Made by a program: the position numbers and the translations under genes
Shown here: piece after piece, positions 4,933 to 9,790 of the stretch
Layout: the number at the start of each line of letters is the position of its first letter
How positions within the stretch are numbered: the stretch's first letter is position 1
NCBI RefSeq assembly: GCF_025136295.1
Contig: NZ_CP062788.1
Span: forward strand, 620,001-684,000
Length of the DNA stretch: 64,000 nucleotides
DNA from: Aestuariispira ectoiniformans
GTDB lineage: Bacteria; Pseudomonadota; Alphaproteobacteria; UBA8366; Aestuariispiraceae
Reading direction: 5' to 3'
Notes under the pieces: model-generated
Database searches by the model: none
Seen by the model: the letters and a program-made list of their open reading frames with translations, nothing else
What the model was told of the DNA's origin: nothing

Positions 4933-5991
4933 TTAATCCGCCGCCATGGCGCAGCGGCTCCATTCCTCACCACAAATGCGGCAGTCCATATTGGAGCTGA
5001 TCCCCGCATTTTCCCGTTCCAGCGCATCGCGCACGATCCGCGCCAGCCCTTCGATAAAGGCTGGATGGTCGTCGACCGTGCCAACGCGATGATAGCCCGG
5101 CACGCCGCATTCCCTGGCCAGATCCCGGTATTCGATATCCAGTTCCACCAGCGTTTCGGAATGTTCGGACACAAAGGCGATCGGCACCACGACCAGATGT
5201 TTTTTCTCCGCACCGGCCCGGCGGATTTCCTCTTCGGTATAGGGCTTGATCCATTCAAGTGGGCCGACGCGGCTCTGATAACAGACCAACCAGTCATGCT
5301 CAGTATCCGCTATACGGGTCATAATTGCCGCTGCAGTGGCCTCAACCTGTTTTTGGTAGGGGTCACCCCCATCGATGACTTTCTGCGGCAGGCCGTGCGC
5401 GGAAAAGAGAATACGCAGATCCTGCTGTGGAATGTCACCGAGCTCCGCCAGCGTTGCTTTCAGCTTGTCGGCAACCGCATCGACAAAGCCTTCCTCACCC
5501 GGATAGCAGCAAACCGCCCTGGTTTTAGGCTTGAAACCTAAATTGGAGGCTGCCCGTTTCCAGTCTTTCAGGGAGGAACCGGTGGTCGTGGTGGAATATT
5601 GCGGGTAAAGCGGCAACAGAACCACCTGATCCGCCCCCCATTCCCGTGCCGCGCTCGCCGCCTCATGGGCGAAGGGGTGCCAATAGCGCATGGCGATGAA
5701 ACATCGCACGTCGCCCAGGCTTCCCCGATCCCCTTCCAAAGCCTTTTCAAGCGCCTTGGCCTGCACTTTCGTATTTGGGAGCAGGGGGGAGCGGCCGCCC
5801 AGTTCCTCATAAATCTTGGCGGCTTCCGGGGCGCGGCGGCCGGAAATCAGCTTTGCCAGCAGCCAGCGAAAAGGCTGTGGCAGTCCGATGATGGCCGGGT
5901 CATTGAACAGGTTGAAAAGAAACGGCTTTACCGTCTCAGGCCCGTCGGGCCCGCCCAGATTGAACAGGATGATTGCCGTTTTCTGCCCCAT
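4933..5991 (-). CDS. hemH: Ferrochelatase
   Basis: A 352-aa enzyme that inserts ferrous iron into protoporphyrin IX, the last step of haem b synthesis. Visible family motifs are NLGGPDGPETVKPFLFNLF near the N-terminus, RYWHPF, LLPLYPQYSTTTTGSS, the active-site region ILFSAHGLPQKVIDGGDPY, and VGPLEWIKPYTEE. A GTG six bases upstream (5997) is an alternative start, but the ATG at 5991 has GAGAG at good spacing. The C-terminus has a cysteine cluster (C337, C340, C347) reminiscent of the [2Fe-2S] ligands of some ferrochelatases. It lies between hemE and hemJ on the same strand. Confidence 0.96.
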   Translation of the reverse strand: MGQKTAIILFNLGGPDGPETVKPFLFNLFNDPAIIGLPQPFRWLLAKLISGRRAPEAAKIYEELGGRSPLLPNTKVQAKALEKALEGDRGSLGDVRCFIAMRYWHPFAHEAASAAREWGADQVVLLPLYPQYSTTTTGSSLKDWKRAASNLGFKPKTRAVCCYPGEEGFVDAVADKLKATLAELGDIPQQDLRILFSAHGLPQKVIDGGDPYQKQVEATAAAIMTRIADTEHDWLVCYQSRVGPLEWIKPYTEEEIRRAGAEKKHLVVVPIAFVSEHSETLVELDIEYRDLARECGVPGYHRVGTVDDHPAFIEGLARIVRDALERENAGISSNMDCRICGEEWSRCAMAAD

Positions 5992-6043
5992 AATCACTCT
6001 CAGATGGTGACACGAAGGTCGTTTTCCAACCTCATTTTACCCG

Positions 6044-7081
6044 TCAGACCCGTCTGCGGACCAGATCCATCAGACGTTCCACATGCTCTACCGGAGTTTC
6101 CTTGATGATGCCATGACCCAGATTGAAGATAAACGGACCATTCGACAGATTGTCCAGAATCCGGTTCACGCTATCATCGAGGCCTTGCCCGCCGGCCAGC
6201 AGAATCTGCGGATCGAGGTTCCCCTGGACCGGCAGATGGTTCTGCAGGTTGTCGGCCGCCCATTTCGTCGGCACCGTGGTATCCAGCCCGACGGCGGTGA
6301 CCGCGGTTTCACGGACATAATCCGGGTAGCGCAGGCCCGCGCCACGCGGGAAACCGATAATCGGCGTGGACGGATGTTTCGCCCGGATCAGGGAAACAAG
6401 CTTTTTCGTCGGGGCGATCACCCAGCGATCAAAAGCATCTTCCGGCAGAACACCGGCCCAACTGTCGAAAATCTGAATGGCTTCGGCGCCATTTTCGATC
6501 TGGGTGTTCAGATATTCCGCCGTGCCTTCGACGATCAGATCAATCAAAACCTGAAAATCATCCGGTTTTTCAAAGGCAAAGCCCTTGACCGTGGCAAAAT
6601 CCCGGCTGCTGCCGCCCTCAACCATATAGGTGGCGACCGTCCAGGGCGCACCGGCAAAGCCGATCAGGGCCGTGGACTTGGGCAGAGAACTGCTGAGCCC
6701 GGCGACTGTCTCATAGACCGGCTCCAGACGCTGGTAAATCCAGTTCGTCGAAAGCTTTTGAATGTCGGACAGGGAGCGGACCGGCTCCAGTTTCGGGCCT
6801 TCCCCCTGGACAAAAGTCACCTCCTGGCCCAGCGCATCGGGCAGAACCAGAATGTCGGAGAACAGGATCGCGGCATCAAAACCAAAGCGGCGGATCGGCT
6901 GCATGGTGACTTCGATCGCCAGTTTGGGCGTATAGCACAGCTCCAGAAAACCGCTGACATTGGAGCGAATGGCCCGATATTCCTCAAGGTAGCGGCCCGC
7001 CTGACGCATCAGCCATACCGGCGGATGTTTATGGGCTTTACCGTTTAGGGCAGCGAGAAACGGTTTTTCGATATCGGTCAC
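6044..7081 (-). CDS. hemE: Uroporphyrinogen decarboxylase
   Basis: A 345-aa cytoplasmic enzyme that decarboxylates uroporphyrinogen III to coproporphyrinogen III. It has the signature PPVWLMRQAGRYLEEYRAIR near residue 20, ILFSDILVLPDALG, the pocket segment GFAGAPWTVATYMVEGGSS, IFDSWAGVL and FNLGHGI near the C-terminus. The length is standard. It is the first gene of the leftward hemE-hemH-hemJ cluster and borders the origin-like gap, as hemE does in Caulobacter. Confidence 0.97.
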   Translation of the reverse strand: MTDIEKPFLAALNGKAHKHPPVWLMRQAGRYLEEYRAIRSNVSGFLELCYTPKLAIEVTMQPIRRFGFDAAILFSDILVLPDALGQEVTFVQGEGPKLEPVRSLSDIQKLSTNWIYQRLEPVYETVAGLSSSLPKSTALIGFAGAPWTVATYMVEGGSSRDFATVKGFAFEKPDDFQVLIDLIVEGTAEYLNTQIENGAEAIQIFDSWAGVLPEDAFDRWVIAPTKKLVSLIRAKHPSTPIIGFPRGAGLRYPDYVRETAVTAVGLDTTVPTKWAADNLQNHLPVQGNLDPQILLAGGQGLDDSVNRILDNLSNGPFIFNLGHGIIKETPVEHVERLMDLVRRRV

Positions 7082-7484
7082 TTTAACCCCGTAAGTCTGA
7101 AAATTAGATCCGTCCTACTATCATCTCTATTAATTTTATTAAAGGAATTGATGTAGATGTTGGTGGGCTGAGTCATGGGGATTAAATTTCATCCCCGATT
7201 TTGCCCTCAGACAGAATTCCTACGCAAAAAGGCTGTGAATATCTCACGGGTAAAATTACTTAATCTTTTGATTCATAATGCAAAATAAATGTGTGAATCA
7301 TCTGTGTAAGAATCCTCGCAGAGATGTTTATTCACAGAATTAGAATGTGTGAATCACAGTTATTCAGAAGGGCAAAAAAGATAATTTTCACAGTGCACCA
7401 ATGTGGGCATATTTGCCTATCTGAGTTTTCCAGATATTTTTCCTCAAGATACACACAGGCTTTCCCAGAAGGTTATCCCGACTC
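7082..7484. other. Candidate chromosome origin (oriC) between hemE and the PPDK/PEPS regulator
   Basis: A 403-nt AT-rich gap between divergent genes. In Caulobacter crescentus and other alphaproteobacteria the replication origin lies between hemE and the RP001-type gene, as here. Seen directly: a perfect DnaA box TTATTCACA (7328-7336); one-mismatch versions on the minus strand at 7234-7242, 7292-7300 and 7348-7356; a plus-strand near match TTATTCAGA (7360-7368); an AT-rich stretch at 7110-7145; and four GANTC sites (7270, 7295, 7310, 7351). It must also hold the hemE promoter and that of the rightward operon. Origin function is inferred from synteny and these motifs. Confidence 0.7.
7328..7336 (+). 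promoter_or_regulatory. DnaA box, perfect match
   Basis: TTATTCACA fits the strict consensus TTATNCACA. Near matches lie within 100 bp on both sides in both orientations, a clustering typical of an origin rather than chance. Confidence 0.7.
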
Positions 7485-8351
7485 ATGACAGACCAGGCCA
7501 GCATCACCTTTCACGTTCACCTCGTCTCTGACTCAACAGGTGAGACCGTTCACGGGATTGCCCGTGCCTGTATCGCCCAGTTCGAAGGCGTGGATGCGGA
7601 AGAACATCAGTGGCCGCTGGTCCGCAGCGTGGGACAGCTTGAAAAAATCATTGAAAAGATCAGGGAAAAACCAGGCGTCGTTATGTATACGCTGGTCAAT
7701 GACGATATGCGCCAGCACCTGCATGCGGCCTGCCGGAAATACCGAATTCCCTGCATTTCAATCCTGGACCCCGTGATCAATTTCCTGGTGAATTACCTTG
7801 GCGTGAAAAGTAAGGGCCAGCCGGGGCGCCAGCATATGCTGGACGCGGAATATTTCTCCCGTATCGACGCCATGCAGTTTGCGCTCGCCCATGATGACGG
7901 GCAGGGTCATTGGAATTTGAGCGATGCGGATGTGGTTTTGATCGGTGTCTCCCGTACGTCAAAGACGCCGACCTGTATTTATCTGGCCAACCGTGGGGTC
8001 AAGGCGGCCAATGTTCCCTTCGTGCCGGGGGTGAACCTGCCGGACGATCTGGATCATATTGCCGGTGACGGCATAGACGGCCCCTTCGTTGTCGGACTGA
8101 CAAAGGAGCCGGGCAGTTTGGTACAGCTTCGTAAAAGCCGCCTGCGGATGATTGCCGATGATCAGGAAACCGACTATGTGGACCTGGATCAGGTCAAGGC
8201 GGAGGTTCTGGCCTGCCGTCGGCTTTGTGCGGAACGTGGCTGGCCGGTGCTGGACGTGACGCGCCGTTCTATTGAAGAGACGGCGGCCGCCGTGATCCGC
8301 CTGATGGAAATGCGCAGTACCAAGAACGAGCAGGACAAGGACCAAGAATAA
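7485..8351 (+). CDS. Pyruvate,phosphate dikinase / PEP synthase regulatory protein (kinase/pyrophosphorylase, DUF299)
   Basis: A 288-aa bifunctional serine/threonine kinase and P-dependent phosphorylase that switches PPDK or PEP synthase off and on according to the ADP and phosphate state. The N-terminus (HVHLVSDSTGETVHGIARA) and the P-loop-like motif VVLIGVSRTSKTPTCIYLA near residue 150 are diagnostic, as is YVDLDQVKAEV further on. This is the RP001 homologue that flanks the origin in alphaproteobacteria. The stop TAA is followed directly by the ATG of maf, so translation is probably coupled. Confidence 0.93.
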   Translation: MTDQASITFHVHLVSDSTGETVHGIARACIAQFEGVDAEEHQWPLVRSVGQLEKIIEKIREKPGVVMYTLVNDDMRQHLHAACRKYRIPCISILDPVINFLVNYLGVKSKGQPGRQHMLDAEYFSRIDAMQFALAHDDGQGHWNLSDADVVLIGVSRTSKTPTCIYLANRGVKAANVPFVPGVNLPDDLDHIAGDGIDGPFVVGLTKEPGSLVQLRKSRLRMIADDQETDYVDLDQVKAEVLACRRLCAERGWPVLDVTRRSIEETAAAVIRLMEMRSTKNEQDKDQE

Positions 8352-8954
8352 ATGACAAGCCCCAGGATTGTATTGGCTTCGGCCAGCAAGACCCGTGCGA
8401 AACTGCTGGAAAATGCCGGTGTCAAAGTCGAACTGGACCCCGCCAATGTGGATGAGGACGGTGTGAAGGACAGCCTCAAGGCTGAAGGAGCCTCCGCCGT
8501 TCAGGTCGCCGAAACGCTTGCCGAACTGAAGGCTGTGTCGGTCAGCCGCCGTCATCCGGATGCCCTGGTGATTGGCGGGGACCAGACCCTGGATTGCAAT
8601 GGGACCTGGTTCGACAAGCCTGCCGATATGGATCATGTGCGTGCTCATCTCATGGCGCTGCGCGGCAAGACCCATCGCCTGAATGCCGCCGTCTGTGTGG
8701 TTCGCAATGGTGAACGCCAGTGGCATCTGAACGATGCGGCGGAAATGACTATGCGCCCGTTCAGCGATGATTTCCTGGACTGGTATCTGGAAACCTGCGG
8801 TTCGGAGGTCTGCGGTTCGGTTGGCGGATACCAACTGGAAGGGCCGGGGGCACAGCTTTTCTCCGGCGTGCGCGGTGACTATTTCACTGTATTGGGGTTG
8901 CCGTTGTTACCATTGATGGAATTCCTGCGCGCCAACAGGGGACTGATTAAATGA
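8352..8954 (+). CDS. Maf family nucleoside triphosphate pyrophosphatase
   Basis: A 200-aa cytoplasmic house-cleaning pyrophosphatase that removes non-canonical or modified nucleotides. The N-terminus IVLASASKTRAKLLENAGV matches the Maf signature (usually ASxSPRR), with K-T in place of the usual P-R. DALVIGGDQTL carries the catalytic Asp region and LRGKTHRLNAAVCVV follows. It starts immediately after the preceding stop and overlaps aroE by four bases (ATGA), so it sits within a tightly coupled operon. Confidence 0.92.
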   Translation: MTSPRIVLASASKTRAKLLENAGVKVELDPANVDEDGVKDSLKAEGASAVQVAETLAELKAVSVSRRHPDALVIGGDQTLDCNGTWFDKPADMDHVRAHLMALRGKTHRLNAAVCVVRNGERQWHLNDAAEMTMRPFSDDFLDWYLETCGSEVCGSVGGYQLEGPGAQLFSGVRGDYFTVLGLPLLPLMEFLRANRGLIK

Positions 8955-9790
8955 CCCATTACAAAGCCGGTGTTATCGGCTGGCCTATCTCGCATTCCCT
9001 GTCGCCACGCCTTCATGGGTTTTGGTTGCATCAGATGGGGATTGAAGGTCGTTACGATGCCGTACCAGTTGAGCCTGACGAGTTGGGCGTCTTCATCGGC
9101 AAGCTGGCGGATCATGGCTATGCCGGGGTGAATGTCACGGTGCCCCATAAACAGGCGGTCATGGAGTTTTGTGACCGGATAGAGCCTCTGGCAAAGCGGA
9201 TCGGGGCGGTGAATACCATAGTGGTGGAAGGTGACGGCAGCCTGACCGGCAGCAATACCGACCATTATGGCTTCAAGCAAAATCTGGTTCAAAGCGGCAA
9301 GATAACCGGGGATATGACCAAGGGTCATGCGGTTGTCCTGGGCGCGGGCGGGGCGTCCCGTGCGGTTTGTACGGCGTTGGAAGAATTGGGGTTTTCCACT
9401 ACTCATCTGCTGAACCGGACTGTGGAAAAGGCGGAAGAGGTGGCCGACGAACTGGGCGGCGCGATCAGGCCGGGGCCTATTGATAGCGCGGCAGACCTGA
9501 TGGACGGGGCGGGATTGCTGGTGAACACCACAAGCCTGGGCATGAAGGGGCAGAAGCCGTTGGAAATCTCCCTGGATCGCCTGCCGGAGACCGCCCTGGT
9601 GACCGATATCGTCTATAACCCGTTGATGACGGATCTGCTGCAGCAGGCCGAGGCGCGCGGCAATCCGGTGGTCGATGGGCTGGGGATGCTGCTGTATCAG
9701 GCCATTCCTGGTTTCAAGTCCTGGTTCCGGCCCAAAGAAGAACCGCAGGTCACGCCGGAATTGCGCGATCATATGCTGGCGGCGCTGTAG
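8951..9790 (+). CDS. aroE: Shikimate dehydrogenase
   Basis: A 279-aa NADP-dependent enzyme that reduces 3-dehydroshikimate to shikimate in aromatic amino acid synthesis. Substrate-site motifs WPISHSLSPRLHGFWL and GVNVTVPHKQAVM are present, then NTDHYGF, the nucleotide-binding loop VLGAGGASRAV, LLNRTVEKAE, and the C-terminal GLGMLLYQA. The length is normal. The ATG overlaps the stop of maf by four bases and coaE follows after 11 nt. Confidence 0.96.
   Translation: MTHYKAGVIGWPISHSLSPRLHGFWLHQMGIEGRYDAVPVEPDELGVFIGKLADHGYAGVNVTVPHKQAVMEFCDRIEPLAKRIGAVNTIVVEGDGSLTGSNTDHYGFKQNLVQSGKITGDMTKGHAVVLGAGGASRAVCTALEELGFSTTHLLNRTVEKAEEVADELGGAIRPGPIDSAADLMDGAGLLVNTTSLGMKGQKPLEISLDRLPETALVTDIVYNPLMTDLLQQAEARGNPVVDGLGMLLYQAIPGFKSWFRPKEEPQVTPELRDHMLAAL

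Follow-up and report, generated by a model that had tools for sequence, protein, structure and literature searches.

Organization of the hemE-COG1806 intergenic region

The window, i.e., the whole 64-kb stretch of DNA analysed in this work (G000:C1:620001-684000), belongs to a genome of 4.36 Mb assembled in a single contig of 4,361,962 bases. Its positions 7082-7484 (contig 627,082-627,484) represent a gap of 403 bases embedded between two divergent genes. The left boundary gene is hemE (6044-7081, minus strand), which matched the TIGR01464 profile with 401.8 bits (cut-off 302.95). The right one (7485-8351, plus strand) codes for a COG1806 protein, a PpsR-type kinase-pyrophosphorylase (Kinase-PPPase), and matched PF03618 and NF003742 with 304.8 and 327.6 bits, respectively, both above the cut-off. 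According to these profile matches, the original prediction, which placed the gap between hemE and a divergently oriented regulator gene, was correct in both coordinates and genes. An Rfam scan of positions 5500-9500 of the window did not retrieve any RNA family. A terminator-like hairpin directed at the COG1806 gene is located at 7403-7420 (plus strand); one such structure was found, compared with a mean of 0.4 in shuffled sequences.

DnaA, CcrM, GcrA, and CtrA are all encoded in the genome. The dnaA gene (G000:C1:334381-337863) does not adjoin the origin and maps 291 kb from the gap. The CcrM orthologue scored 539 bits against 6pbd ("Modification methylase CcrMI") and harbors a RAMA domain, its score with the CcrM model NF050803 being 632, under the cut-off of 830; the occurrence of a GANTC methyltransferase in the genome, which had been indicated beforehand as a check, was thus verified. 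The NCBIfam model for GcrA was matched below its cut-off; the Pfam models and the NCBIfam model for CtrA were matched above theirs.

Moreover, a cluster of parB, parA, rsmG, gidA, and mnmE, named by eye from their translations, lies to the left of the window, at 613-619 kb (G000:C1:613442-619216), and embeds three parS sites at 615.8-617.9 kb (L007:5773, 7815, and 7871), 9-11 kb from the gap. Probing the 64-kb window with the parS consensus, with up to three mismatches allowed, did not retrieve any site, those of the par cluster being placed 2-4 kb to the left of the window.

GC skew and probable location of the origin

Within the window, the GC skew changes its sign at 6-8 kb, with negative values to the left and positive ones to the right. 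At the chromosome level, we sampled 20 stretches of 20 kb, which cover 9.2% of its length and include two that overlap the window. All those between 0.65 and 2.62 Mb had a positive skew, and all those from 2.83 Mb onwards, past the contig end and up to 0.61 Mb, had a negative one. The second change of sign falls 2.0-2.2 Mb from the gap, the antipode of 0.627 Mb being at 2.81 Mb. The signs on both sides imply that the cumulative skew has its minimum at the gap and its maximum near the antipode; hence, the skew of the window and that of the 20 chromosome samples both bear out the cumulative minimum at the gap that the original prediction had proposed as a check.

According to passages of PMC1914354, hemE and the COG1806 gene enclose the experimentally identified origin of Caulobacter, and the origin of Rickettsia prowazekii is flanked by the same pair. 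The gap shares its boundary genes, an AT-rich stretch, and DnaA boxes with the Caulobacter crescentus Cori and the alphaproteobacterial hemE-COG1806 origins (PMC1914354, in the same passages). GANTC sites, the skew switch, and parS at a distance of about 10 kb or less are further features that it has in common with Cori, and a candidate IHF site may be another one.

The skew switch, the hemE/COG1806 pair, the DnaA box cluster, and the nearness of parABS strongly support the claim that the gap is a replication origin and, also considering synteny, positions 7082-7484 (intergenic, no strand assigned) almost certainly correspond, as judged from the sequence, to a chromosomal origin (oriC) of the hemE-ori-COG1806 type. 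The skew shifts are too coarse to pin an origin within a few hundred bases, and the gap might, in principle, be an ordinary divergent promoter region close to the origin and not the origin itself; this appears very improbable, as the boundary genes, the box cluster, a polar unwinding element found throughout the class, and the nearness of parS converge on the same 403 bp. An origin of the hemE-ori-COG1806 type, inclusive of the opening route proposed below, is with high confidence the best explanation of these data as one whole. The location is the place already known in relatives, and the presence of GANTC within DnaA-binding sites is the less ordinary part. The origin of this genome would be fixed to 403 bases, providing a model from outside the Caulobacter group in which consensus CtrA sites are lacking at the origin.

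DnaA boxes and candidate IHF and CtrA sites

Allowing up to one mismatch, the gap harbors five DnaA boxes (TTATNCACA), one of which is perfect, with 36 in the whole window; at least five boxes occurred in one out of 5000 dinucleotide shuffles of the gap, the mean being 0.55. The motif scan located ATATTCACA, with one mismatch, at 7234-7242 (minus strand); the G-box-like sequence TGATTCACA at both 7292-7300 and 7348-7356 (minus strand); the perfect box TTATTCACA at 7328-7336 (plus strand); and TTATTCAGA, with one mismatch, at 7360-7368 (plus strand). All the boxes that had been predicted, i.e., a perfect one plus at least three on the minus strand and one on the plus strand with one mismatch, were therefore retrieved in the gap.

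The two TGATTCACA boxes sit in a 13-nt direct repeat (7288-7300 and 7344-7356) and both contain GATTC, embedding the GANTC sites 7295-7299 and 7351-7355, respectively. This 9-mer was seen only these two times in a genome sample of 434 kb, and two or more copies of it occurred in one out of 5000 shuffles of the gap. The Caulobacter G-box is TGATCCACA and lacks GANTC, whereas the boxes described here read TGATTCACA and, hence, contain it: a T-to-G change on a box having T as its fifth base results in TGATTCACA, which includes the CcrM site GATTC. The conserved T-to-G change of the Caulobacter G-boxes weakens DnaA binding, as reported in a passage of PMC4468827.

A candidate IHF site, AATCAAAAGATTA (7261-7273, minus strand), is an exact match to the IHF consensus; with up to one mismatch, this consensus gave two matches in 3.6 kb versus 2.3 expected, i.e., chance level. 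As for CtrA, the search for TTAA-N7-TTAA, with up to one mismatch, did not retrieve any site in the gap, in contrast to the Caulobacter origin, which has such sites; the gap also differs from it in having only one perfect DnaA box. CtrA half-sites with a spacing of six matched twice, each time with one mismatch, at 7130 and at 7250 (at least two were found in 18 out of 200 shuffles), and CtrA may bind weakly at these positions.

An AT-rich stretch and a trinucleotide run in the left half of the gap

The left half of the gap, which had previously been overlooked, carries an arrangement of an AT-rich stretch, a trinucleotide run, and a GGGGATTAAAT block resembling, in its sequence, the DnaA-trio unwinding element. 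The AT-rich stretch (7119-7149, no strand assigned), presumed to be the DNA unwinding element, is the AT maximum of the gap, with 25 out of 30 bases being A or T. The run scan retrieved TTG ATG TAG ATG TTG GTG at 7148-7165 (plus strand, i.e., the strand read from hemE to COG1806), a DnaA-trio-like sequence, and 11 nt from it lies the GGGGATTAAAT block (7177-7187, plus strand), conserved in the family alignment and probably representing a degenerate reverse DnaA box, at best two mismatches from TTATNCACA. In the alignment of the family gaps, AT-rich DNA, triplets ending in G, and then GGGGATTAAAT form a conserved block to the left of the box cluster; the box beside the triplets is a clear TGTGGATAA in several relatives and is degenerate in the window.

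The class-wide comparison included 144 loci, 37 from genomes of the window's order and 107 from further genomes of the class. COG1806 had no match in 52 out of 162 class genomes, and a partial match at a contig start (G084), a second copy (G169), and a weak match (G190) were left out. A divergent hemE is within reach in 127 of the 144 loci, and 113 of these 127 gaps measure 303-572 bp; in the remaining 17 loci, no hemE was found upstream in the sequence covered, which in some of them stops at a contig end. Eight distant loci, whose COG1806 protein is 48-54% identical, were kept out of the class counts, seven of them being used in the gap comparison (no hemE was found in L031).

When the longest trio-type runs of the two strands are compared, that of the plus strand prevails in 107 of the 127 gaps and that of the minus strand in nine; runs of at least five were found in 65 gaps on the plus strand and in none on the minus strand, 62 of these 65 gaps having the run in their first third. 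The AT maximum falls in the same third in 121 of the 127 origins. The mean longest run is 4.4 on the plus strand, 2.4 on the minus strand, and 2.7 on the shuffled plus strand. With a looser NNG rule, runs of at least five are present in 84 gaps on the plus strand and in 15 on the minus strand; taking one genome per family, the plus run is the longer one in 51 out of 68 and the reverse holds in seven, runs of at least five being 28 versus 0. Most of the 127 hemE-flanked origins, then, carry such an element on the same strand and on the same side. The GGGGATTAAAT block is exact in 13 of the 127 gaps and present with up to one mismatch in 25, in a position that varies relative to the trio run. 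The orientation of the DnaA boxes with respect to the unwinding element has no clear bias over the class (149 away, 162 towards).

A basal unwinding system (BUS) has been predicted in 1755 out of 2070 origins, under a rule of at least three trios with a central A (passages of PMC8287927). The element described here is similar to the Bacillus subtilis BUS in the order and strand of the box, the 11-nt spacer, the G-bearing triplets, and the AT-rich DNA (passages of PMC8287927 and PMC10721633), and it differs from it in the central trio base, which is not restricted to A, and in the residue at the place of Asn187 of DnaA, which is mostly Tyr or Phe. The strict rule requires at least three 3'-NAN-5' trios in a row, adjacent to a DnaA box; at 7137-7171, the longest run with a central A is two and the NAG run is one, and the box within 16 bp of the trios is the degenerate one (at least two mismatches), 11 nt away. 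The element has the layout of a BUS and is not assigned to it, since it departs from this rule. The same holds for the class: in the 113 elements (14 of the 127 gaps have no trio run according to the rule used), the central base is T in 219 trios, A in 163, and G in 148, and three consecutive central A were found in only four elements.

In B. subtilis DnaA, Asn187 reads the central A, and Arg202 and Glu228 read G (a passage of PMC10721633). The residues occupying these three places in the DnaA encoded by this genome are Tyr204, Lys219, and Glu245, respectively (alignment to 8btg, with the places read by eye). We compared the region of residues 198-219 (numbered as in the DnaA of this genome) and the Glu245 place in 50 alphaproteobacterial DnaA proteins (L189-L238), i.e., the 30 top-scoring ones, including that of this genome, and 20 lower-scoring ones chosen by hand. 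At the place of Asn187, 41 of them have Tyr or Phe, three have Asn, and six have another residue, and the guanine-reading pair is Lys in 50 out of 50 and Glu in 50 out of 50. This correlation fits an element that would be anchored on G and free at its centre. If the class-wide pattern holds, the way in which alphaproteobacterial DnaA opens origins mostly devoid of the central A read in Bacillus becomes testable.

GANTC sites in the gap, in the genome, and in the class

The GANTC sites originally reported at 7270, 7295, 7310, and 7351 were all confirmed. Two others, at 7170 and 7480, had escaped that reading and bring the total of the gap to six, a further one (7530) being just inside the COG1806 gene. 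Apart from the two within the TGATTCACA boxes, the motif scan assigned them (with no strand) to 7170-7174 (GAGTC), between the trio run and GGGGATTAAAT, a place shared with the family relatives L056 and L052; to 7270-7274 (GATTC); to 7310-7314 (GAATC); and to 7480-7484 (GACTC), adjoining the start codon of the COG1806 gene.

One GANTC per 256 bp, the chance rate initially assumed, overestimates the frequency in this genome: the motif is about five-fold under-represented in the window, with 54 sites versus 279 expected by shuffling. The 434 kb genome sample, window included, contains 572 GANTC sites (one per 759 bp), and seven control motifs of the same composition range from 479 to 1991 in it, one of them, CTNAG, being rarer than GANTC. 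According to passages of PMC3973325, GANTC is under-represented genome-wide and commoner between genes in CcrM-bearing alphaproteobacteria, and the GANTC motifs of the Caulobacter origin and of the origins of close relatives are already in print.

Compared with the genome, the excess of GANTC in the gap is strong: its density is 14.9 per kb, and the rest of the intergenic DNA sampled, as delimited by a crude ORF rule, has 1.49 per kb. The same rule merges the gap with part of the next gene, giving a segment of 877 bp with seven sites, which has the highest count among 203 crude intergenic segments; a few short segments match or exceed the density of the gap (three sites in 151 bp, four in 264 bp, and two in 118 bp). 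Another cluster of four sites in 85 bp was found once in the 434 kb, so the one in the gap is not unique. The nearest relative, L035, has seven GANTC in 491 bp and one TGATTCACA, placed elsewhere, and we dropped the conservation of GANTC positions as an argument.

In principle, the GANTC excess might be a by-product of AT-rich sequences abounding in DnaA boxes, with no selection for methylation. Compared with its own shuffles, the excess of the gap is moderate (at least six sites in 56 out of 5000, at least four within 85 bp in 32 out of 5000), and a G-box with T at the fifth base contains GATTC automatically. Origins classed as ccrM-negative also look similar: the ten of this group have eight GANTC in the 45 bp after the trio run versus 46 in 103 ccrM-positive origins, and four versus 39 in the 45-bp window ending at the end of the run. 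This likeness may mean that ccrM was lost recently, that the assemblies are incomplete, or that the sites do not depend on CcrM (genomes were listed as negative by hand, when they had no match or a best match weaker than E 1e-100). On the other side, none of seven control motifs having an identical base composition is as frequent as GANTC in these stretches, both in the 103 origins and in 50 family representatives, and we consider a mere by-product rather unlikely.

The 103 origins counted as ccrM-positive include 35 from the window's order, where CcrM was searched in only G000 and G009 and the other 33 were assumed to be positive; all 50 family representatives were included in the CcrM search. 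In the 103 origins, GANTC occurs 39 times in the 45 bp before the trio run (3-15 for the seven controls), 42 times in the 45 bp after it (4-20), and 165 times in the rest of the gap (37-118); in the coding flanks, with 250 versus 138-505, it does not exceed every motif. Around the trio element, GANTC reaches, class-wide, 4-5 times the mean of the control motifs of the same composition, and 54 of the 103 origins have at least one site within the two 45-bp flanks. Compared with the rest of the gap, the two flanks have odds ratios of 2.5 and 2.2 (Fisher P 1e-4 and 3e-4, respectively, values that ignore shared ancestry). The 50 family representatives gave 21 versus 1-8 before the run, 22 versus 2-9 after it, 74 versus 12-63 in the rest of the gap, and 111 versus 70-223 in the coding flanks. 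We picked both the rule for the trios and the flanks of 45 bp after viewing the alignments; the opposite strand and the control motifs therefore serve as a guard.

Moreover, the commonest triplet following GANTC in the gaps is ACA, with 29 out of 562 site-orientations versus 8 out of 555 in the coding flanks and 30 out of 1719 for the control motifs; GANTCACA, in which GANTC is joined to ACA and which represents a DnaA-box core, is present in 22 of the 127 gaps.

Proposed opening of the origin and possible role of methylation

We can depict the following opening route. The box cluster (7234-7368) would be the loading site of DnaA, possibly with the aid of IHF bending the DNA near 7261-7273. 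From there, the DnaA filament would extend leftwards across the degenerate box GGGGATTAAAT and reach the trinucleotide run (7148-7165). By capturing the single strand of this run, the filament would melt the AT-rich stretch (7119-7149), where the helicases would be loaded. GANTC is part of the two TGATTCACA boxes, in which the T-to-G change of the G-box is combined with a T, and also lies beside the unwinding element. In Caulobacter, CcrM acts late in the cell cycle; here, the GANTC sites would be hemimethylated after firing until CcrM acts late in the cycle. The methylation state would most likely tune, to a modest extent, either the binding of DnaA or the hemE promoter, and would not be an obligatory lock.

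The methylation part of the original prediction stands as far as the GANTC sites and the CcrM enzyme are concerned; its role in timing replication is weakened by the report that CcrM is not required for the control of initiation in Caulobacter. Passages of PMC3973325 report CcrM as dispensable for this control, its loss leaving a DNA-content profile like that of the wild type and its overexpression giving extra chromosomes. Full methylation of the origin is taken as a requirement in an older modelling study (a passage of PMC2217572) and, in Agrobacterium, CcrM changes ori2, with no clear effect on the DnaA-dependent ori1 (a passage of PMC11514494).

A broader reading, which we advance tentatively and consider rather improbable as a whole, is that alphaproteobacterial origins put CcrM sites in the opening machinery, with GANTCACA inside DnaA boxes and beside a class-specific trio with a relaxed centre, so that methylation would tune DnaA loading in each cycle; positions would turn over between genera, with the density being kept. 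Within the same tentative reading, the G-box substitution of GANTCACA would at once lower the affinity for DnaA and create a methylation site, and the trio centre would have been relaxed alongside the DnaA residue reading it. The layout would be similar to that of Dam and independent of it: E. coli oriC, with its Dam/SeqA system (compared in PMC3973325), has adenine-methylation sites overlapping or beside DnaA boxes, through GATC and Dam, whereas the gap has GANTC and CcrM. None of the matches listed by the literature search, which did not extend to subscription journals, joined alphaproteobacteria, the DnaA-trio, and GANTC; with the same scope, the passages retrieved on GANTC, DnaA-box overlap, and CcrM contained no description of GANTC inside DnaA boxes. 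If the class-wide pattern holds, the observation that, in Caulobacter, CcrM overexpression gives extra chromosomes whereas CcrM loss does not change initiation becomes testable.

Alternatively, the origin would be real and the GANTC cluster would serve the hemE and COG1806 promoters, through GcrA acting on methylated GANTC, and not initiation; we regard this as a plausible possibility, somewhat short of even. GcrA and CcrM are both encoded in the genome, the hemE promoter could lie in the AT-rich stretch, and the binding of GcrA depends on GANTC methylation (a passage of PMC3667746); the abundance of GANTC between genes in CcrM-bearing species (PMC3973325) points in the same direction. A simple sigma-70 scan of positions 7000-7560, which may miss real promoters, retrieved only one weak promoter-like match, i.e., chance level, and promoters alone do not predict the preference for ACA after GANTC in the gaps. 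Control of the hemE promoter by GcrA could be behind part of the GANTC pattern.

Dense GANTC clusters are also present elsewhere in the chromosome, near G000:C1 874196 (four sites) and 1969433 (three sites), each within 82 bp (L009 and L014, respectively); they possibly correspond to promoters regulated by CcrM/GcrA.
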